A stretch of DNA of 64,000 nucleotides. Origin: Nocardia fluminea (GTDB lineage Bacteria > Actinomycetota > Actinomycetes > Mycobacteriales > Mycobacteriaceae). Below are positions 12,442 to 63,657 of this stretch, in pieces. The stretch covers positions 3,162,001-3,226,000 of the forward strand of contig NZ_PJMW01000002.1 of the NCBI RefSeq assembly GCF_002846365.1. Reading direction: 5' to 3'. How positions within the stretch are numbered: position 1 is the stretch's first letter; every line of letters begins with the position of its first letter. A program made the translations under genes and the position numbers. The notes beneath the pieces are model-generated. The model did no database searches. It was not told where the DNA came from and was given only the letters and a program-made list of their open reading frames with translations.

Positions 12442-13776
12442 GTGGCGATGATTGCGAAATACTGGGTTCGATGGTCGGCCGAACACGGGGCGCCGCGCGC
12501 GATCCTGCGCTGGCAGGTGCGTCGCGGGGATCCGTTCTCGACATTGCTCAGTGGCAGGCAGGGCCTGCACGATCCGTATCCGCTGATCGACGAACTGCGT
12601 GGTCGCGGCGGGATGATCAGAACGTCGGTGTCCTTCGCGACCTTCGATCACGCGCAGGTCCGGGCGATTCTGCGGGACCCGAGATTCGGCGTGCGCCCTG
12701 CCCTCAACACGGAGCTGCCTGCCCCGTGGCGCAAGCTGGCGGGGGTGGTCACGGTGCCGCCCAACCCGGTCGAGCCGCCGTCGATGCTGGTCCTCGACCC
12801 GCCCGAGCACACCCGGATGCGCAAGCCGGTGGCCTCGGCGTTCACCCCGCGCGCGATCGCCCGGCTGCGCGAGCGCGTGGAAGTGGTCACCGCCGAACTG
12901 CTCGAGGCGATGCCCGCGGACGGATCAGTCGACCTGATCACCGATTTCGCGGCCAGGGTGCCCATCGCGATCATCGCCGACATGCTCGGCTTCCCGCCCT
13001 CGGACCGCGAGATGTTTCTGCGATGGGGCGACAAAGTGACGCCGTTGCTCGATCTCGGCACCTCGTGGCGAACGTATCGGGCGGCGATGGCCGCGATCGA
13101 GACCATGAACGACTATCTGGCCGATCACATCGCCACGCTGCGCCGGGCACCGGGCGAGGACATCCTGTCCACGCTGGTCAGCTCGGGCGATCTGAGCCTG
13201 CGGGAACTGCAGGCGGGCGCGAGTCTGCTGATGGGCGCCGGTTTCGAGACGACGGTCAACCTCATCGGCAACGCGGTCGCCGCGCTGTCGGCCCATCCCG
13301 GCCAGCTCGCGCTCGCCCAGGCCGACCCCGACCGCTGGCCCGACGTGGTGGAGGAAACGCTGCGGTTCGATCCGCCCGTCCAGACCACCGCGCGCCAGAC
13401 ACTCGAGGATGTCGACGTCGACGGCGTGCGCGTGCGGGCGAACAGCACGGTCATCCTGTCGCTGGCCGGAGCCAACCGCGACCCGGCGGTCTTCCCCGAC
13501 CCACATCGCTTCGACATCGACCGCCGCAATGCCAAGGAACACGTGGCATTCAGTAGCGGTGTGCACTCCTGCCTCGGTGCGAGCCTGGCCAGGATGGAAG
13601 CGGTCCACGCACTGCGCGCGCTCTACACCCGCTACCCGGATCTGCGGTTGCGCGGCGAGCCGGTCCGCCGAAACCTGTTCACGCTGCACGGTTTCGAGCA
13701 CATGCCGGTCGACCTGGGTCCGGTCGCGCGCACCCCGGCCCCCGATGACCTGGCGGGTGCGTCCCGTCCGGCCTGA
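12442..13776 (+). CDS. Cytochrome P450
   Basis: A soluble bacterial P450 of 444 residues. The I-helix has AGFETT (Glu-Thr acid-alcohol pair), the K-helix has EETLR, and the haem loop is FSSGVHSCLG with the Cys ligand at residue 377; the usual second Gly of FGxGxHxC is Ser here. N-terminal residues 1-35 are basic and aromatic but not a convincing membrane anchor. No ferredoxin or reductase gene is adjacent, so electrons must come from elsewhere. The substrate is unknown. The GTG at 12442 follows a GCAGGG site; an in-frame ATG at 12448 is possible. Confidence 0.92.
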   Translation: MAMIAKYWVRWSAEHGAPRAILRWQVRRGDPFSTLLSGRQGLHDPYPLIDELRGRGGMIRTSVSFATFDHAQVRAILRDPRFGVRPALNTELPAPWRKLAGVVTVPPNPVEPPSMLVLDPPEHTRMRKPVASAFTPRAIARLRERVEVVTAELLEAMPADGSVDLITDFAARVPIAIIADMLGFPPSDREMFLRWGDKVTPLLDLGTSWRTYRAAMAAIETMNDYLADHIATLRRAPGEDILSTLVSSGDLSLRELQAGASLLMGAGFETTVNLIGNAVAALSAHPGQLALAQADPDRWPDVVEETLRFDPPVQTTARQTLEDVDVDGVRVRANSTVILSLAGANRDPAVFPDPHRFDIDRRNAKEHVAFSSGVHSCLGASLARMEAVHALRALYTRYPDLRLRGEPVRRNLFTLHGFEHMPVDLGPVARTPAPDDLAGASRPA

Positions 13777-13826
13777 GTCCGGCGCGCACCGATCCTCCGT
13801 CGGCCGGATGAGCTGTCCGGGCGCGG

Positions 13827-14525
13827 CTACGTGCTCGCACGCCAGCGGTAGCGGGTCTTCGGCCGACCGGCCCGGCCGTAGTCGGCGCGGCGCTCGGCCA
13901 ATCCGTCGTCGGCGAGCTTCTCGAGATAGCGCCATGCCGTGATCCGCGAAACGCCAACGGCCGCAGCGGCATCGGTGGCCGTGATCCCGGACTCGGCCGA
14001 GCGCACCGCCCGCGACACCTCTTCGAGGGTGTGCTGGACAACGCCTTTCGGCGCACCGGCCTTCTGGTCGGCCGTGCGCAGCGCACCGAGCGCGCGGTCG
14101 ATGTCGTACTGCGACAGCGCCGCCTCGCCCGCGGGCAGCGCGGTGTTGAAATCGCGGTAGCGTTCCAGCTTCTCGCGGAACGCGGCGAAGGTGAACGGCT
14201 TGAGCAGGTACAGCACCACACCGTGCGCCACCGCGCTGCGCACCATGTTCAGCTCACGCGCCGAGGTGATCGCGATGACGTCGGGGCGCGGCTGGAGTCC
14301 GTTGAGCGCGGCGGCCACATCGAGGCCGCTGATATCGGGCAGCCCGATGTCCATCAGGACCAGATGGAACGGATTACCGTCGGCGATCGCCTCGGCCGCC
14401 ACCCGCAGCGCGTCGCGTCCGGTGTGCACGACCCCACCGGTGACGAAGCCGTCGAGCCGTTCGAGATAGGCCCGATGGGCCTGGGCGATCAACGGCTCGT
14501 CCTCGACGATCAGGACGCGGATCAT
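13827..14525 (-). CDS. CitB/DcuR-type response regulator
   Basis: A 232-residue regulator with an N-terminal receiver domain (acidic pocket VEDE at residues 7-10, phospho-acceptor Asp59 in LVLMDIGLPD, conserved Thr/Ser in ITSAREL) and a C-terminal winged helix with the HTH AVGVSRITAWRYLEKL near residue 195-210. The family pairs with sensors of citrate, malate or fumarate. Its ATG overlaps the kinase stop by 4 bp, so both are made together. The DctA transporter is transcribed divergently from the kinase, and is the obvious target. Confidence 0.92.
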   Translation of the reverse strand: MIRVLIVEDEPLIAQAHRAYLERLDGFVTGGVVHTGRDALRVAAEAIADGNPFHLVLMDIGLPDISGLDVAAALNGLQPRPDVIAITSARELNMVRSAVAHGVVLYLLKPFTFAAFREKLERYRDFNTALPAGEAALSQYDIDRALGALRTADQKAGAPKGVVQHTLEEVSRAVRSAESGITATDAAAAVGVSRITAWRYLEKLADDGLAERRADYGRAGRPKTRYRWRAST

Positions 14526-55388: not shown

Positions 55389-56669
55389 ATGGGCAACGAG
55401 GTCGCGCGGCCGCTGTCGGCGTCGGAGCGGTGGTTCTGGCTCGTCGATCAGTTGTCGCCGGCCAATTGCGTGGTTCGGTTGCGGGTGCGCGGATCGATCG
55501 GCGCTTACCGGCTCGAAGATGCGGCCGATGCGGTGCTCGCGGAATTTCCGCTGATGCGAACGACGGTGGTCGAGGGGCCTCGTTTCGCCCCCTCTGCCGA
55601 CCCGCACCTTCCGGTGCTGCACCGCATAGTCGCGGATTCCGACGAGTGGCGCACGGTGTTCGACGAGCAACTGGCCGAGCCGATCGACCTCGCGTCGTCC
55701 CCGGGGCGGCTCATCGATCTGGTGTGGCGCCCGGGTACGTCCGAGGAACACCACGACCTGATCCTGGTGTTGTCCCATGTGCTGCTCGACGGCCGGTCGA
55801 TGACCTCGCTCGGGTGGCGAATCCTCGCTTACGCCTTCGGATCTCCGCCTCCGCTCGCCTCGCGCCCGCCGATCCCGGCCCCCGACGACCTCATCCCACC
55901 CGCGTACACCCGGCTCCTGCGCTGCCTGCGTACCAACATCGCCGGTCAGCTCGGCGCGACTGCCCGCCGTCCGACCAGCTTGCCCGGTACCCCACCACCG
56001 CTCCCGATCCGCCGCACCCGCACCGTGATTCGCACTATCGAGGGCGACGCCCTCACGACCCTGCGCGCTCGGTGCCACGAGCAAGGCGTCACCGTCAACG
56101 CCGCGCTGACCGCCGCACTGGCGGATGCCCTCGGCGAACTCGCTCCCCGCCCCTCCGGTGTCGCGGGCATCGGCATTCCGGTCGACGTCCGCGCCCGCCT
56201 GAACCCACCCCCGGCCGACGACGAGCCCGGCATGTTCACCGCGGTAGTTCCTACTTTCGTCCCCTACGGCCCGGCCTGGTCCCTGTGGGACGCGGCACGC
56301 GCGGCGAAGTCCCAACTCGACCGGCGACTGGCCGGGCACAAGGACCTCACCGCACTGGCGGCCATCCGCTACGGCTGCCCTCGCTCGCTCGAATCCGGCA
56401 GGCGCACCATCGAAGTCATCGACCGCCGCGCACCGTGGAATGTCACTCTCAGCAACCTGGGCAGGCTGTCGCCGCCCGAAACCCCTGAGCCGCTGGACAT
56501 CACGGCGCTGACAGTCGCGGGGACGAACTCCTGTGCCAGCGCGTTGACGGTCGCGGTGGCCACTCTCGGCACCACGATGTCGATCACGTTCTGCTACGTC
56601 GACGCCATGCTGCCCCGGGCGACGATCGACTCTCTCGCCGACCGCACTCTGCGCTCCGTCACCCGCTGA
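55389..56669 (+). CDS. PapA-like condensation-domain acyltransferase
   Basis: A 426-residue BAHD/condensation-type acyltransferase like mycobacterial PapA5. The catalytic motif HxxxDG appears as SHVLLDGRS (His130, Asp134), and the C-terminal half carries the second CoA-acyltransferase-like domain with NVTLSNLG. PapA proteins transfer acyl chains to hydroxyl groups of lipids or trehalose. The ATG at 55389 is preceded by TACGCT six bases upstream, which would make the transcript leaderless. It is convergent to the beta-lactone operon (stop 70 bp before the end of nltC), so a role in decorating that product is an attractive inference, not shown. Confidence 0.85.
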   Translation: MGNEVARPLSASERWFWLVDQLSPANCVVRLRVRGSIGAYRLEDAADAVLAEFPLMRTTVVEGPRFAPSADPHLPVLHRIVADSDEWRTVFDEQLAEPIDLASSPGRLIDLVWRPGTSEEHHDLILVLSHVLLDGRSMTSLGWRILAYAFGSPPPLASRPPIPAPDDLIPPAYTRLLRCLRTNIAGQLGATARRPTSLPGTPPPLPIRRTRTVIRTIEGDALTTLRARCHEQGVTVNAALTAALADALGELAPRPSGVAGIGIPVDVRARLNPPPADDEPGMFTAVVPTFVPYGPAWSLWDAARAAKSQLDRRLAGHKDLTALAAIRYGCPRSLESGRRTIEVIDRRAPWNVTLSNLGRLSPPETPEPLDITALTVAGTNSCASALTVAVATLGTTMSITFCYVDAMLPRATIDSLADRTLRSVTR

Positions 56670-56739: not shown

Positions 56740-58254
56740 TCAGGCGAGGAGTCTGCCGACGAGCTCGCGTACCGCCGCGCGGTCCGGCTTGTTCGTCCGT
56801 CCGCTGACCGGAATTCGATTCACCACCACGATGTCGTCGGGGACCGCGGTGGTGTCGATGACCTTCGGCAGCCGTTCGCGGAGAAGTGCCACGACATCGC
56901 CCGACCCCGGTTCGGTGACGACGGCGAGCACGATCCGCTCGTCGCCGATCTCGTCCGGCAGCCCGACCATGATCGCCTCGCGTACGCCGTCGATCGCGGT
57001 GATCACCGGCTCGTACAACCCGGGATAGATGTTGGTCTTGCCCCGGATCATCATGTCCTTCTTGCGTCCGGTGAGCACGAGTTCCGCACCGTCCCACCGC
57101 GCGAGGTCCCCGGTCGCGATCTCGGTGAGGGGCCGCGCGCCGAGATACCCGCGGCACAGATTCGGGCCGGACAGCAGGAGTTCGCCGTCGTCGGCGATCC
57201 GCGCCCGCACACCCCGTACCGGAGCGCCGAGCAGGTCTCCGTCGTGCGCCAGCTTCGCGGTGCCGGTCGCGACCGCCACCGGCAAGATCTCGGTCATGCC
57301 GTAGATCGCGAGAAACTCGGTGCCGGGCAACGATTTCCGGGCTCGACGAAGGAGCGCGGAGGTGACCGGTGCGCCACCGAGAGCCACTTGACGGAGGTTG
57401 GGCGGCGCCGCGAGCTCGCCGGCTTCGATCGCGTCGAGCGCGCCGGCGAGATCGGCCGGGGTGTAGAACGCGTGCGTCGCGCTCCGCAGATTCCGCGTGA
57501 ATCGGACGGGATCGATGTGGGTACCGAATCGTGGATAGCGCGGCATCGCCCAGCGTGCCCCCGCCATCAGCGCGGGTAGCCCCATCATCAGCTGCTCGGT
57601 GTGCAGGAAGGCGCCGGGTGCGAGACTGGTCTCACCGCCCATCGCGGCGAGTCCGGCACTCAGTGAAGCGCGGGTGTGCACAACGGCTTTCGGATCATCG
57701 GTCGTTCCGGAGGTGAAAACGATCAACGCCGCCGCATCGGGTTGCGTGGTGGGCAAAGCGGTTTCGGGTGCGTCCCCGGTGAACCGCCGCGCCGGGATCG
57801 ACCCGAACGGCGTACCGGGCAACCACACTCCGCTGTGGATATGGCGGACATCGAGCGCGCCGAACCGCGGCAGTTCCAGTCCCTTCCTGCGCCCGAACCC
57901 GGCGAGCGGGCCACTCACCGCGTACAGCAGGGATTCCGTTGCGGCCCAAGCGGGTTCGACCAGTCCGACCCGCTTGGCGAAAAGCTCCGGACCCACACCG
58001 GGGTCGACGAAGACGATCGTTCCGCCCGCCGCGATCGCCCCGAAGATCAACAGCACCGACGGCACACTCGGCCGGATCGAGAACAGCATTCGATCGCCCG
58101 GTGCGAACCCCGCCGCGCCGAGATTGTGTGCCACCCGGCCGACGGAATCCACCAGTTCCCGATAGGTGAGCGCGCGCTTGCCGACCGTGCCGAGCGCCGA
58201 CGCGTCCGGTATCCGTTCGGCTCGCGCGGCGAGTTCCGCGAGAAAGTCGGTCAC
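56740..58254 (-). CDS. nltC: AMP-dependent ligase, OleC/NltC-like beta-lactone synthetase candidate
   Basis: A 504-residue ANL-superfamily enzyme. The P-loop is FTSGTTDDPK (about residue 175), A5 is YGMTEI (about 310), A7 is TGDLARW-like, and the A10 lysine is in GRTNKPDRA near the C-terminus. In this gene set it is expected to cyclise a beta-hydroxy acid to a beta-lactone through an acyl-AMP, as OleC does. A classical acyl-CoA ligase is the alternative, since sequence alone does not separate them. The GTG start sits within the stop of the glycosyltransferase gene (GTGA). No OleB decarboxylase follows, so the lactone could be the final product. Confidence 0.83.
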   Translation of the reverse strand: MTDFLAELAARAERIPDASALGTVGKRALTYRELVDSVGRVAHNLGAAGFAPGDRMLFSIRPSVPSVLLIFGAIAAGGTIVFVDPGVGPELFAKRVGLVEPAWAATESLLYAVSGPLAGFGRRKGLELPRFGALDVRHIHSGVWLPGTPFGSIPARRFTGDAPETALPTTQPDAAALIVFTSGTTDDPKAVVHTRASLSAGLAAMGGETSLAPGAFLHTEQLMMGLPALMAGARWAMPRYPRFGTHIDPVRFTRNLRSATHAFYTPADLAGALDAIEAGELAAPPNLRQVALGGAPVTSALLRRARKSLPGTEFLAIYGMTEILPVAVATGTAKLAHDGDLLGAPVRGVRARIADDGELLLSGPNLCRGYLGARPLTEIATGDLARWDGAELVLTGRKKDMMIRGKTNIYPGLYEPVITAIDGVREAIMVGLPDEIGDERIVLAVVTEPGSGDVVALLRERLPKVIDTTAVPDDIVVVNRIPVSGRTNKPDRAAVRELVGRLLA

Positions 58255-59003
58255 CGAATGTCGACCACGTCGGGCCGATACCGATGATCGGCGTACCAGG
58301 CCAGCGTCTTGCGGATGCCCCAGGCGCGCACGCGCCGGTTCGAGCCGTACACCCGCACGTCCCGGCGCAAACCATAGTCGGTGGTGATCGTACGCACCGC
58401 GTTGACCAACGCCCGGTCCTCGTGCAGATCCTCGATCGCGGTGCGCGGGAATCCGCCTGCGGCGACATACAATTCGGCGGTGATGGCCATGTTGCACCCC
58501 GGTGTCATCACATACGGGCCGAGATACCCGGGATCCCGGTTTCCCGAACGCACTTTGCCGAATGCCGACGCCACCTCCAGGGCTACCCGGATGATCGTGC
58601 GGTCGATCCAGGAAACGCCTTCGTCGGTGCGCGGAATCAGCTGACCGCTGACCAGTCGCAACCCGGAGCCGAACCCGGCCTTGATCCGCTGCGTCCAGTC
58701 CGGGGCGGGCAGGCAGTCGGCGTCGGTGCGCGCGAGGTAGGTGGCGCCCTGGGAGATCGCGTACCGCATCCCGGTGTCGGCGGCGGCGCCGGTGCCCTTC
58801 TGCTGCTCGTCGATCACCACGATGCGCGGCAGCGGATGGGCGGCGGCGAACGCCCGGACCACGTCGGCGGTGCGATCGGTGGAGTTGTTGTCGACCACCA
58901 CCACCGTGAAATCCGTATCCCGTTGCGCTGCGACGGCATCCAGCGTAGTGCCGATGCCCCGTTCCTCGTCGAAGGCGGGGATCACCACCCACAGTGCGCT
59001 CAC
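58251..59003 (-). CDS. Family 2 glycosyltransferase in the beta-lactone operon
   Basis: A 250-residue GT-A fold enzyme with the N-terminal VVIPAFDEERGIGTTLDAV strand, VVDNNSTDRTADVV, the DxD-type metal motif TDADC (residues 93-97) and the acceptor/base region EDLHEDRAL. No membrane helix is seen. It begins inside the nltD stop (ATGA) and ends inside the nltC start (GTGA), so it is embedded between two core genes. In the described nltABCD locus these are the core genes; a sugar on the lactone or its hydroxyl is a possible but unproven consequence. Confidence 0.85.
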   Translation of the reverse strand: MSALWVVIPAFDEERGIGTTLDAVAAQRDTDFTVVVVDNNSTDRTADVVRAFAAAHPLPRIVVIDEQQKGTGAAADTGMRYAISQGATYLARTDADCLPAPDWTQRIKAGFGSGLRLVSGQLIPRTDEGVSWIDRTIIRVALEVASAFGKVRSGNRDPGYLGPYVMTPGCNMAITAELYVAAGGFPRTAIEDLHEDRALVNAVRTITTDYGLRRDVRVYGSNRRVRAWGIRKTLAWYADHRYRPDVVDIR

Positions 59004-60019
59004 GCGTCCTCCAGCAGCCGGTCCAGCCCGCCGACCTGGTCGACCCAGCGGTGGAAGTCGTCCAGGCCGGTCGGGAACGGCACCTCCGGTCGATAGCCCA
59101 GTTCGCGGGTGGCTCGTGAGATGTCATAGGTCGCCGACCGGGTGACGAGCGCGACCGCGTACCGCGACAGCGGCGGAGTCCACCGCTGGGCGACCGCCGG
59201 TATCCGCCAGAGCGTTTCGATCGCCGCCAGAGCCCCGCCGAGCACCGGCGCGGGCACCGTCACGCTCGGTCCGCGCAGCGAGAACCGCGCCGCCACCGCG
59301 TCCAGGGCCGCCCACACCGACACCGGCTCCGCGTCGGCGATGAAATACGCACGCCCACCGACCTTCTCGGCGGTCAGCGCCAGCGCGACAGCGTCGACGA
59401 GATGGTCGATGTAGCACAGCGAAGCCCGAACCTCGCGCCCGCCGGACAGATCCGGTAGCCGTCCCGCGCGCAACTTCGCCAGAATCTGCACGATCGGCCC
59501 GTGCCGGTCGCCGGGTCCCCAGACCGCGCGCGGCCGCAACGAACACGTCGTGAACTCCGGCGTATCGGCGGCCAGCACCAATTGCTCGGCCACAGCTTTG
59601 GTTTCGCAGTAGCTGTTCAGAAAGCGGGCGGGGTAGGGCACGGTCTCATCGATCCCGATCTGATCACCGCCGTCGGGAGCCATCAACGCACTCGGACTGC
59701 CGATGAACACGAACCGTCGCACTCCGGCGGCGGCGGCTTCCTGCATCAGTCGATCGGTCCCGGCTACATTCACCGCGAAAAAGTCCGCGGGCCTGCCGAA
59801 TTCGCCGAGCAGAGCGGCCGCGTGCACCACCGCGCGCACCCCGGCAACGGCCGCGGCCAGCGCACCCGCGTCCGCGAGGTCGGCCACCGCCACCTCGACA
59901 CCCCGCGGTGCCGACGCCGGATCCCGGACCATCGCCCGAACGGGCACCCCGCGCGCCACCAGCCCGCGCACGACGGCCCCGCCGACGAACCCGTTCGCGC
60001 CGGTCACCAGCACTGTCAT
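59000..60019 (-). CDS. nltD: NAD(P)-dependent reductase, OleD/NltD-like
   Basis: A 339-residue extended SDR of the 3-beta-hydroxysteroid-dehydrogenase type, with TGANGFVGGAVV at the N-terminus and the catalytic YxxxK as Tyr137-Lys141 (SYCETKAVAE), and a Ser around residue 108-110. OleD-type enzymes reduce the 2-alkyl-3-ketoacid to the beta-hydroxy acid, the substrate for OleC-type ring closure. Its start lies 58 bp after the small membrane-protein stop. A C-terminal extension from residue 260 includes a hydrophobic stretch (LGGALAAIETLWRIP). Confidence 0.85.
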   Translation of the reverse strand: MTVLVTGANGFVGGAVVRGLVARGVPVRAMVRDPASAPRGVEVAVADLADAGALAAAVAGVRAVVHAAALLGEFGRPADFFAVNVAGTDRLMQEAAAAGVRRFVFIGSPSALMAPDGGDQIGIDETVPYPARFLNSYCETKAVAEQLVLAADTPEFTTCSLRPRAVWGPGDRHGPIVQILAKLRAGRLPDLSGGREVRASLCYIDHLVDAVALALTAEKVGGRAYFIADAEPVSVWAALDAVAARFSLRGPSVTVPAPVLGGALAAIETLWRIPAVAQRWTPPLSRYAVALVTRSATYDISRATRELGYRPEVPFPTGLDDFHRWVDQVGGLDRLLEDA

Positions 60020-60077
60020 CGCGCTACGTCGTCCCGTGGACGATGTCGCGAGCCGCAGCCGAGCGGTGCCGCCCCGG

Positions 60078-60437
60078 TCACTGCCGGCCCTCGCCCAGCG
60101 TTCTCCACCAGGTCGCGCCGAGCAGCATGGTCATCACGGCCGCCCGGCGACCCGAGATTCCCCGCTCAGCGGCCACTTTCCGGGCCGCCGGAATCTGCGC
60201 GGCATGCACGCCGACGCTCAGCACCACATCGATCCAGAACGCCACCCGCAGCCACCGGGCCCGGAACGGCCGCACCACACCGGCGATCAGGAAGATCCAG
60301 CCGATCACCGGAATCGATCGCAGGGCCAGTACCGTCGCCTGGCTCGGTACCCCGCCCGGAGTGTCGGCCGACGCGCGATGGCGACCGTGCCGGGGCTCGC
60401 TCACCGGCTCCGGAACAAGATGCAGAGACCGTGTCAC
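60078..60437 (-). CDS. Small membrane protein in the beta-lactone operon
   Basis: A 119-residue protein with a basic N-terminus and two or three hydrophobic segments (about residues 38-60, 65-80 and 98-112). No known family is recognised. It overlaps the nltB stop by 4 bp (GTGA) and precedes nltD, so it belongs to the operon and could form a membrane platform, transporter component or enzyme subunit. It is not part of the published four-gene core that I know of. Confidence 0.75.
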   Translation of the reverse strand: MTRSLHLVPEPVSEPRHGRHRASADTPGGVPSQATVLALRSIPVIGWIFLIAGVVRPFRARWLRVAFWIDVVLSVGVHAAQIPAARKVAAERGISGRRAAVMTMLLGATWWRTLGEGRQ

Positions 60438-61300
60438 CGCACACCAACCCCTCGATAGGTCACTGCCGCCGCGGTGGGTCCACCATCGGCGGCGACGAAC
60501 AGCAACGGACGTTCGGCCAGTCCCGCGTCGCGTGCCGCCACGAACGCGGCGGTCAACGCGGAAGTGTGTGCGTCCGAAGCGAAGTCGTCGGTCACCACCG
60601 CGCCCACGCCGAGCCGGGCCGCCAGTTCATCGGCGAAGTCCGCGGTCGGTCTACCGCACAGCAGCACCACCTGTCCGGCCTCGATACCGTCCGCCGCCAA
60701 CGCTTCGCGCGCCGCGATGGTCGCGTGTTCGACGAGTTCCGCTGTCCCGGCGAGCAATTCCACCGTCAGCGAGGAGCGCCCTTCGGCTCCCATCGCGGAC
60801 AACTTCACGTACCCCTGCGGGTCGGGCAGTACGTCGCCCGCGCTCACATGGACTCCGCCGAAGCCCACGGCCTCGGCGGAATTCTCGAGCACGAGAGCCG
60901 CCCCGACGGGCTCGAACGCGAACTCCACATCGGCCCGGCCCGACGGATGCGCGTCTCCCGAGACGACCACGACATGCCCGGCGGGCAGATCCGCCAGCAG
61001 CGACGCGGCCACCCCTACCGCGTTCACCACCCCGCAGGCACCGTTCATCAGATCGAACGACAAGCACGGCACGTCACCGCGCCGATAGTCCAAGCCGATC
61101 CCCGCGGCCTGCTGGATCAGCGCCGCGACCGCCGGTTCCACGAGGTTCGCGTCGCGATAGACCCCCACGTTGATCAGTGCGTCGACCTGCTCCGGCGAAC
61201 AGCCGGCTCCTGTCAACGCGTCGCGCGCGGCGCTTGCCGCCTGTCCCACCGAGCTGACTCCGCCGCTGCGCGTCACTGCCGAAGAAATGATGATTCCCAT
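60434..61300 (-). CDS. nltB: Degenerate OleA-like thiolase, NltB candidate
   Basis: A 288-residue KAS III/thiolase-fold protein. Cys89 is retained in MNGACG, and Glu55 lies in NLVEPAVAA, the region that holds the cross-subunit Glu in OleA. The His motif is absent (LLCGRPTADF) and the catalytic Asn motif GNTS appears to be AHTSA. Length is about 50 residues below NltA. It fits a heterodimer partner that completes the NltA active site. It starts 6 bp after the NltA stop. Confidence 0.85.
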   Translation of the reverse strand: MGIIISSAVTRSGGVSSVGQAASAARDALTGAGCSPEQVDALINVGVYRDANLVEPAVAALIQQAAGIGLDYRRGDVPCLSFDLMNGACGVVNAVGVAASLLADLPAGHVVVVSGDAHPSGRADVEFAFEPVGAALVLENSAEAVGFGGVHVSAGDVLPDPQGYVKLSAMGAEGRSSLTVELLAGTAELVEHATIAAREALAADGIEAGQVVLLCGRPTADFADELAARLGVGAVVTDDFASDAHTSALTAAFVAARDAGLAERPLLFVAADGGPTAAAVTYRGVGVR

Positions 61301-61306
61301 ACTGTC

Positions 61307-62335
61307 CTATACCCGCAGATCGCCGATTGTCACCGACAAGAATCCGGCGACCACCCCGGAAGCCGCCGGTACGAGCAGTACCTTCGACCCCGGCGCGATC
61401 AGTCCCTGCCGCAACGCGTCGTGCAGCACCACGAAATGTGAGGTCGACGCGGTATTGCCGTATCTGTCCAGCACCGCGAGGCCCGGCGGCATGGCCGCGT
61501 CGAATTCGCGCTCGGCGATCTTGTTGATCAATTCCACAGCGGGGCCACTGAATTGGTGGTGGATCAGGTAGTCGTAACCCTCCTCGGCGAAGCTGGACCC
61601 GCGGGCGGCCAGGAACTCCAGCTGCCGCGAGGTCCACAGCAGGTACCGGGACTCGTTGTGCATCGCCCGATTGTCGGTGTAGAGCGCGACTCCCGGCCCC
61701 TGGTCGCTGGGCATCCCGAGGCACAGCTTCGCGAAAGCGGCGCTGGTGTTGAGCTCCACATAGTCGAGTCCGGGCCCGTCGGTGCCGTCGAGCACCACGG
61801 CCGCCCCGGCATCGCCGACGGTGAGCGAGGCGAACTGCGGGTCGTATTTCTGCGAGATCTCCCGCACCGCGGTGTCGGCGATCGGCGTGATGCACTCCCC
61901 GGACACCACCATGCCGCGACGCACCGCCCCGGATCGAATCATCCTGTCCAGCAGCAGAACTCCGGTCATCATCCCGGCGCACGCGTTGGACACGTCGAAG
62001 TGGATCGCCCGTTTCGCCCCGAGCGCGGTGCGCAGCATCAGGGCGAACGACGGTTCCAGGCAGAAGTCCTCGCCGCGAGTCCGGGTGATCGAGCAGGAGA
62101 TGATCACGTCCAGGTCGGCGGCGGCGTAACGCGAATTGTCCAGTGCGCTGCGGGCGGCGGCGAGGGCGATGGTGAACGAGTCCTCGGAATCGCCGCGCAC
62201 CCTGCGTGCCCTGACTCCGCTGACCTTCTCCAGATCCAGCGGCGCGTCGACGGCCAGCTGCGCCAGCAAGTCCGCCGTGGTCACTTCCCTGGCCGGCAGA
62301 TACGCGCCGACGGCTTCGATTGTCGAACTCACCAT
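61307..62335 (-). CDS. nltA: OleA-like thiolase, NltA candidate
   Basis: A 342-residue KAS III-like enzyme that would join two acyl-CoAs by non-decarboxylative Claisen condensation. The catalytic triad is intact: Cys119 (SNACAGMM), His260 (IHHQFS) and Asn294 (YGNTASTS); Glu94 lies in FCLEPSF, matching the OleA Glu117 region. GGAAGTGA lies 8 nt upstream of the ATG. A -10-like TAGGAT (62393-62398, minus strand) 57 bp upstream probably starts the operon transcript. It is the first gene and the best candidate for the entry step. Confidence 0.88.
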   Translation of the reverse strand: MVSSTIEAVGAYLPAREVTTADLLAQLAVDAPLDLEKVSGVRARRVRGDSEDSFTIALAAARSALDNSRYAAADLDVIISCSITRTRGEDFCLEPSFALMLRTALGAKRAIHFDVSNACAGMMTGVLLLDRMIRSGAVRRGMVVSGECITPIADTAVREISQKYDPQFASLTVGDAGAAVVLDGTDGPGLDYVELNTSAAFAKLCLGMPSDQGPGVALYTDNRAMHNESRYLLWTSRQLEFLAARGSSFAEEGYDYLIHHQFSGPAVELINKIAEREFDAAMPPGLAVLDRYGNTASTSHFVVLHDALRQGLIAPGSKVLLVPAASGVVAGFLSVTIGDLRV

Positions 62336-62392
62336 GCTTGTTCACTTCCAGATATCGCGTGATGCACGGATCACCACCAGCGCATCTCGTCG

Positions 62393-62398
62393 ATCCTA
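62393..62398 (-). promoter_or_regulatory. -10 box candidate for the nlt operon
   Basis: TAGGAT on the minus strand, 57 bp upstream of the nltA start; its -35 would fall within the palindrome at 62413-62434. Confidence 0.4.
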
Positions 62399-62408
62399 GC
62401 CACAGACC

Positions 62409-62437
62409 TTCACTAATCGGGCCTGCTCGATTAGATT
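62409..62437 (+). promoter_or_regulatory. P450 promoter (-35 and -10)
   Basis: TTCACT (62409-62414) and TAGATT (62432-62437) are separated by exactly 17 bp. The -10 ends 8 nt before the GTG at 62446, which implies a leaderless transcript. Confidence 0.6.
62413..62434. promoter_or_regulatory. 22-bp palindrome between nltA and the P450
   Basis: CTAATCG (62413-62419) and CGATTAG (62428-62434) are perfect arms around an 8-nt spacer. The site lies across the P450 -35 to -10 interval and the probable -35 of nltA, so one repressor could control both directions. Confidence 0.62.
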
Positions 62438-62445
62438 CTGCCGGG

Positions 62446-63657
62446 GTGTGGAGTTCCGCCCGACGCCATGAACTAACCCTACTCGCCGCTGGTCAACCCT
62501 GGTTGCCCGGATTATTGCTGCTGGGACGGTTCGCGCGGCCGATCCGCAAGGTGCCCGAACTCGGCTGGTTCGTCGCCGATCCGCTGGTGGCCCGCCAGAT
62601 CTACAACGACAGCACACATTTCAGCATCGTGTCCGAGGGCGCGGCCGGGCACTGGTGGGCGCAGGTCATCGGCGACTGGGTGGAGGATCTGTTCGAGGGA
62701 CCCGGCCATACCGACCTGCGGACCAAGGTGCGCGACCTGTTCACCCTCGCCCACACCGATGCCCTGGTCGAGCGTGTGATCGGCCCTGACTTGCGTGACC
62801 TGCGCGAACGCCTCGCGGCCGGCGAGACCGTCGACATCGCCGCCCGCGCGCAGATCCTGGTCGGCCGCAGCGTCTCCGACCTGGTCGGGATGCGCCCCGA
62901 AGACATCGCCGCGGCGATCGGCGGCGACTACACCGACGACCAGGACGCGCTGTTCCTGCGCCTGTTCCATCATGTCGAAGAGCTGGTGAACCTGGGTTTC
63001 GGCACCATGGCCTCGACCACCCTCGACCCGGTCGCGCTGGCCCGCGCCCGTGAGCTGGCCACCCAGCTCGCCGTCAACGTTCCCGACGCGTACGCCCGCG
63101 CCGACCCCGACACCACCCTCGGCCGCTGCCGCGAACTGGGCCTCGACGTCGAGCACGCGGGCGGCCTGGCGATCCTGATGGCCGTCGCGGGCACCGACAC
63201 GCTCGCCAGCGCGATGACCAGAATGGTCGCGATCATGCACGACACCGGCCAGCACCGCGCGCTGCTCGCCGCCCCCGACCGCTTGCCCGACGCGGTCCGC
63301 GAGACTCTGCGCGTGACGAGCCCGGCCTACCTGGTCGGCCGCTCGGTCACCGCGGACGTCCGCGTCGCCGACCGCGACCTGCGGGCGGGCGAGCACGTGA
63401 AGATCCTCACCTGGACCATCAACAACGCGGCGGGGGAGTTCCGGGTCGACCGGGAGTACAACCCGGAAACCCGCCAGCTCTGGTTCGGCGGGGGCCGCCA
63501 CCTCTGCCTCGGCGCCCAACTGGTCCACTCCGAACTCACCGCGCTGCTCGAAGCGTTGACTGCCGCCGGTCGCCCGTGGGAGATCGTCGAACGCCGTTAC
63601 CGCAGAAAGGTTTTCATCCCCACCTACGAGAAGCTCCGCATCCGCCTCGCGTCGTGA
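62446..63657 (+). CDS. Cytochrome P450, divergent from the beta-lactone operon
   Basis: A 403-residue P450. The I-helix has AGTDT (Asp-Thr acid-alcohol pair), the K-helix ETLR, and the haem loop is FGGGRHLCLG with Cys354, fully canonical. It is only distantly similar to the P450 at 12442-13776. The GTG at 62446 is chosen because of the promoter just upstream; an in-frame ATG 126 bp upstream would lie inside the operon control region. It might oxidise the lactone or its acyl chain. Confidence 0.9.
   Translation: MWSSARRHELTLLAAGQPWLPGLLLLGRFARPIRKVPELGWFVADPLVARQIYNDSTHFSIVSEGAAGHWWAQVIGDWVEDLFEGPGHTDLRTKVRDLFTLAHTDALVERVIGPDLRDLRERLAAGETVDIAARAQILVGRSVSDLVGMRPEDIAAAIGGDYTDDQDALFLRLFHHVEELVNLGFGTMASTTLDPVALARARELATQLAVNVPDAYARADPDTTLGRCRELGLDVEHAGGLAILMAVAGTDTLASAMTRMVAIMHDTGQHRALLAAPDRLPDAVRETLRVTSPAYLVGRSVTADVRVADRDLRAGEHVKILTWTINNAAGEFRVDREYNPETRQLWFGGGRHLCLGAQLVHSELTALLEALTAAGRPWEIVERRYRRKVFIPTYEKLRIRLAS

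Follow-up and report, generated by a model that had tools for sequence, protein, structure and literature searches.

A Nocardia operon couples an nlt-type thiolase pair to a glycosyltransferase and a sister-clade relative of the beta-lactone synthetases

A minus-strand operon of Nocardia fluminea encodes two OleA-type thiolases of nlt lineage, an OleD-type reductase, a small membrane protein, a GT2 glycosyltransferase and an AMP-forming (ANL) enzyme from a deep sister clade of OleC/NltC, with a cytochrome P450 gene diverging from it and a PapA-type acyltransferase gene convergent onto the ANL. Judging from sequence, we propose with a probability of roughly 0.47 that a hybrid pathway encoded here makes a sugar-decorated, oxidised, head-to-head-condensed lipid, probably a beta-lactone. 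The operon lies in a 64,000-nucleotide stretch (the window) corresponding to positions 3162001-3226000 of contig NZ_PJMW01000002.1 (C2 of genome G000) in the 8.06 Mb genome. In window coordinates, the genes are:

62362..63657, plus strand: cytochrome P450 diverging from KS1, with its haem Cys preserved (Pfam p450; motifs)
61307..62335, minus strand: KS1, OleA/NltA-type thiolase, presumed catalytic subunit (Pfam ACP_syn_III and ACP_syn_III_C; 60% identical to the NltA-like protein of the same genome)
60434..61300, minus strand: KS2, partner thiolase subunit, NltB/LstB-like (45% identical to the NltB-like protein of the same genome; without a Pfam match)
60078..60437, minus strand: small membrane protein (TM) of about two hydrophobic stretches and no known family (hydropathy)
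59000..60019, minus strand: SDR, OleD/NltD-type 2-alkyl-3-oxoalkanoate reductase (NCBIfam OleD NF042422; 53% identical to the NltD-like protein of the same genome)
58251..59003, minus strand: soluble GT2 glycosyltransferase with a DAD motif (Pfam PF00535)
56740..58254, minus strand: ANL, AMP-forming enzyme whose clade is a deep sister to OleC/NltC (Pfam AMP-binding; tree)
55389..56669, plus strand: PapA-type acyltransferase, convergent (Pfam PapA_C and Condensation; PDB 8s6l)

The order KS1-KS2-TM-SDR-GT2-ANL includes 4-base overlaps at three junctions (KS2/TM, SDR/GT and GT/ANL) and gaps of 6 bases between KS1 and KS2 and 58 bases between TM and SDR; GC3 of the operon genes is 0.80-0.87 and there are no internal stops. 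The P450 reading frame opens with a TTG at 62320, its first ATG lying at 62362, 26 bases from KS1, and the ANL starts at a GTG at 58254, the 795-residue ORF spanning 56740-59127 being longer than the real gene. The nearest named loci by SDR (85% identity), those of N. rhizosphaerihabitans (L029) and N. neocaledoniensis (L030), have the identical order P450-KS1-KS2-TM-SDR-GT-ANL-PapA. ORFs and Pfam matches bear out the first-pass annotation, which had listed two OleA-like thiolases, an OleD-like SDR, an AMP-forming enzyme, a glycosyltransferase and a membrane protein on the minus strand with a divergent P450, and had noted the absence of an OleB-type alpha/beta-hydrolase among the operon genes; it had overlooked the PapA-type gene beside them.

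The two thiolases differ in their catalytic motifs. KS1 retains the EP, NAC (Cys), HQ (His) and GN (Asn) motifs in all 45 aligned rows (44 genes, one entered twice). Among the 44 rows aligned for KS2 (43 genes), the Glu of VEPA is present in every one, and 27 keep the NGAC Cys. KS2 has no Pfam match at 1e-3, and its 12 PDB matches (best E 5e-6) are all OleA-type 3-oxoacyl-[ACP] synthase III chains, which we take to be Xanthomonas OleA; an AlphaFold model (three sequences) had a mean pLDDT of 44.3 and was not usable. A KS tree separated KS1 and NltA from the other KS lineage with a support of 98/99; this is the only split used, since L003, L004 and L006, among the five FabH rows, are meaningless owing to wrong frames. 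In the lipstatin pathway, LstAB acts with LstE and LstF. According to PMC12141560, the LstAB heterodimer carries Cys/His/Asn in LstA (C128, H271, N305) and an essential Glu in LstB (E60), a logic shared by the KS1/KS2 motif pattern in a comparison based on the published residues. KS1 and KS2 thus look like a heterodimer of the lipstatin/nlt type.

The reductase scores 204.9 bits against the NCBIfam OleD model, below its cut-off of 580, and is 53% identical over 345 residues to the NltD-like protein of the same genome. The small membrane protein has no Pfam or NCBIfam family match and could serve these enzymes as a partner in assembly or at the membrane. It had been read as an insertion among the core genes, a claim that we withdraw: ten of 12 complete nlt-type loci (L164-L170, L174, L177 and L178) encode it between nltC and nltD.

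The ANL, earlier called OleC-like, is placed by the trees in a clade sister to OleC/NltC. In a tree whose outgroup was 27 further ANL proteins from this genome, the ten focal-type ANLs formed one clade (100/100) and seven OleC/NltC proteins another (100/100), and the two were joined at 99/98 through long branches; a smaller tree also joined them (95/97), with a program warning of long branches meeting. The TE-x-[LF]-P motif is found in 17/17 rows of GT-type and OleC ANLs and in 0/27 other ANLs. The joined clades and this exclusive motif indicate that the focal ANL is a deep sister of the beta-lactone synthetases, not their orthologue. It scores 77.4 bits against the Xanthomonas OleC model NF045786 (cut-off 900), 127 bits against the OleC-containing PRK09274 (cut-off 478) and 138 bits against the acyl-CoA ligases PRK06187, and retains the ordinary ANL motifs, with the catalytic Lys near the C-terminal end. 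PRK09274 is the best NCBIfam match of the ANL of a related locus, L205 (142 bits). The low OleC score had suggested an ANL unrelated to OleC, a view dropped in light of the trees. Beta-lactone ring closure by the focal enzyme is plausible.

The GT2 enzyme has its DAD motif at residue 94, and the haem-binding Cys motif of the P450 is intact (FGGGRHLCLG, with AGTDT and ETLR). The P450 also matches weakly the P450-derived glycosyltransferase activators TIGR04515 (51.5 bits, cut-off 343). PapA aligns over its full length with PDB 8s6l (162 bits), and its HxxxDG motif is present in 18 of the 19 loci checked; the PapA-type match of genome G006 (L152) is without HxxxDG.

The close OleC relative in this genome is the ANL of another locus, L163, at 149-154 kb of contig C1 (from 149443), where KS1-, KS2-, ANL- and SDR-type genes form a set that we presume, from its gene content, to be nltABCD, the nocardiolactone cluster reportedly described by Robinson et al. 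in 2020 (JBC). The L163 ANL reaches 616 bits against PRK09274, above the cut-off of 478, and 534 bits against the Xanthomonas OleC model, below the cut-off of 900. Identity between the focal ANL and this enzyme is 27%, and the two fall in separate clades. Given the nlt-type set on C1, this low identity and the 534 versus 77 bits, we rejected the focal operon as the nocardiolactone cluster. It shares with nltABCD (see also PMC7413640) two adjacent thiolases, an OleD-type reductase, the small membrane protein and the lack of an adjacent OleB, but has the deep-branching ANL instead of NltC, plus GT2, P450 and PapA. PMC7413640 counts 36 nocardiolactone clusters in Nocardia; in our sample, NltC-type genes occur in 77 of 98 Nocardia genomes.

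The nlt locus may itself be larger than nltABCD. A protein of about 400 residues with an invariant HGVMDG (the HxxxDG acyltransferase motif) is encoded directly after nltD on the same strand in all 12 complete nlt-type loci of the 16 examined (L163, at 13154-14356, and L164-L170, L173, L174, L177 and L178). It matches no Pfam or NCBIfam family and nothing in the PDB significantly, and it aligns weakly with the focal PapA (24% over 360 residues, E 0.006). One internal TGA was flagged in each of two nltC matches, G016:C12:37377-39026 and G076:C11:530917-532566.

Two oleABCD clusters (L223 and L225) have homologous thiolase, reductase and AMP-forming genes, yet they include OleB, which is missing beside the focal operon, and their ANLs are about 26% identical to the focal one. 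The genome yielded 28 matches to an actinobacterial OleB, none of them beside either cluster; the top match shares 32% identity (99.7 bits, C1:1237789), whereas the two oleABCD OleBs share 58% identity (276 bits, blastp). A distant OleB may lie elsewhere in the genome. Because no OleB adjoins the operon, a lactone would be the end product.

A close GT (at least 432.9 bits, the next best scoring 65.6), with orthologues 77-100% identical, was found in 26 of the 98 sampled Nocardia genomes. The ANL (1e-100) is present in 27, the extra genome being G025, where just 27 GT residues are left alongside. In the 26 GT-positive loci the ANL always adjoins the GT, and PapA is found in 22, the P450 in 19, TM in 11 and the SDR in 7 (absent from 19). 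KS2 is full in 23, interrupted by a contig end in one and absent in two; KS1 is full in 21 and absent or broken in the other five, including one remnant and one copy at a contig end. These counts are lower bounds since G055 and G019 stop at contig ends. All but one of the 27 ANL-positive genomes carry an nltC-type gene in trans, and the data fit a requirement for an nlt cluster in trans where the SDR is lost. The exception, G006, keeps KS1, KS2, TM and SDR in its GT-type cluster, and a single genome proves nothing.

Across the family, the ANL (1e-40) was detected in 13 of 301 genomes, of which five belong to four other genera. The P450 gene of L205 and L206 (50-51% identical) lies immediately behind the ANL in the same orientation; none was found in L204. 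Two further loci from two other genera of the family, L207 (8061-13063) and L208, have the order GT-ANL-GT-P450-SDR with two GT2 genes; no KS was found in either, L208 having just 1.3 kb upstream. In the phylum, 3 of 396 genomes had the ANL. A Streptomyces-like ANL used as query matched 17 of 394 genomes of the class at 1e-60, and ten of these loci, chosen by ANL alone, all encode KS, GT and ANL, eight with a P450, seven with an SDR and seven with all five functions. The five-function set is also present in L216 and L217. Compared with the focal proteins, the GTs of these other-class loci are up to 62% and the ANLs 35-49% identical, but a KS of an unrelated lineage occupies the same place in all ten. 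No canonical ole cluster was found among 78 non-Nocardia OleD-like loci. GT-ANL kin across families with a different KS lineage point to a hybrid, in which an nlt-type front end is joined to a GT-ANL-P450 back end. The survey supports the view that the GT, the membrane protein and the P450 recur with the core genes. The adjacency of GT and ANL across families speaks against their being late additions to an nlt operon.

The five-gene set and the prediction of a glycosylated beta-lactone are already published: PMC7064751 describes a cluster of Actinoplanes atraurantiacus encoding OleA, GT, OleC, P450 and OleD, with no OleB candidate, for which a hydroxylated, glycosylated beta-lactone was proposed. 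In a cell assay its OleA showed activity, but the purified enzyme gave no condensation of the acyl-CoAs tested. The focal operon unites the same five functions, judged by the published gene content, but has two nlt-lineage subunits in place of the single OleA and adds the membrane protein and PapA. In the collection of papers searched, this was the only one to combine OleA, glycosyltransferase, cytochrome P450 and beta-lactone; four papers in it name nocardiolactone.

An nlt-type front half and a sugar-adding, oxidising back half would probably yield a decorated relative of nocardiolactone. The KS1/KS2 heterodimer would condense two acyl-CoAs head to head to an alpha-alkyl-beta-keto acid, which the SDR (perhaps NltD in trans for copies without it) would reduce to the beta-hydroxy acid. 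The P450 would hydroxylate a chain and GT2 would attach a sugar to a hydroxyl; the ANL would adenylate the acid and most likely let the beta-hydroxyl close the beta-lactone, and PapA would probably acylate a hydroxyl of the sugar or the chain. Several observations count against this scheme. The focal ANL scores far below the OleC models, the branches joining its clade to OleC are long, L207 and L208 are without a detected KS, the purified Actinoplanes OleA failed with the acyl-CoAs tested, and the losses of SDR, KS1 and KS2 among the 26 copies imply that the GT-ANL core is kept where lactone chemistry is impossible in cis.

A serious possibility is that no lactone forms and that the operon makes a mycolate-like glycolipid. 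The mycolate route depends on Pks13; here, KS1/KS2 and SDR would supply an alpha-alkyl-beta-hydroxy acid without it, the ANL would only activate the acid (as acyl-AMP or acyl-CoA), PapA would esterify and GT2 would provide the sugar. The ordinary ANL motifs with the C-terminal Lys, the similar scores with PRK06187 and PRK09274 (138 and 127 bits), the PapA gene in 22/26 copies and the true NltC being a separate gene, in trans in 26/27 ANL-positive genomes, are all in line with such a product. Against it, the ANL clade sits beside OleC and not with any of the 27 other ANLs, and PapA was not found in L204-L206 or in loci of other families, which argues that the esterifying step is not general.

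It is less probable that GT, ANL, P450 and PapA form a separate pathway with the KS pair as an optional passenger, although G074 and G011 have P450-GT-ANL-PapA without the pair, G050 is without KS1 and G028 retains a KS1 remnant. In these four genomes the pair could come in trans from nltC-type clusters, which all of them have; moreover, the pair adjoins GT-ANL in the 21/26 loci with a full KS1 and in three genus groups, and an unrelated KS takes its place in the other-class loci. The kinship of KS1, KS2 and SDR with the nlt-type set (60/45/53%) would also suit a second nocardiolactone cluster with an identical product, which we regard as very improbable: the ANL is not NltC, GT and P450 have no counterpart in L163 and PapA was not found there.

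The glycosylated beta-lactone reading bears on a class of compounds that inhibit lipases and proteases; sugar-bearing lipid beta-lactones from an OleA-GT-OleC route have been proposed, and none has been isolated in the literature examined. The ANL sister clade offers a clean test for the origin of OleC-type ring closure, and genomes carrying both an nlt-type and a GT-type cluster make a shared front end testable by single deletions. More speculatively, and less likely than not, a distinct ANL class, sister to the beta-lactone synthetases, and a dedicated soluble GT2 may make sugar-bearing head-to-head-condensed lipids across actinobacteria. Nocardia and its kin would have taken over a heterodimeric KS front end of nlt type and could draw on a resident nlt cluster in trans, a common condensation step feeding nocardiolactone-type as well as glycosylated products in one genome.
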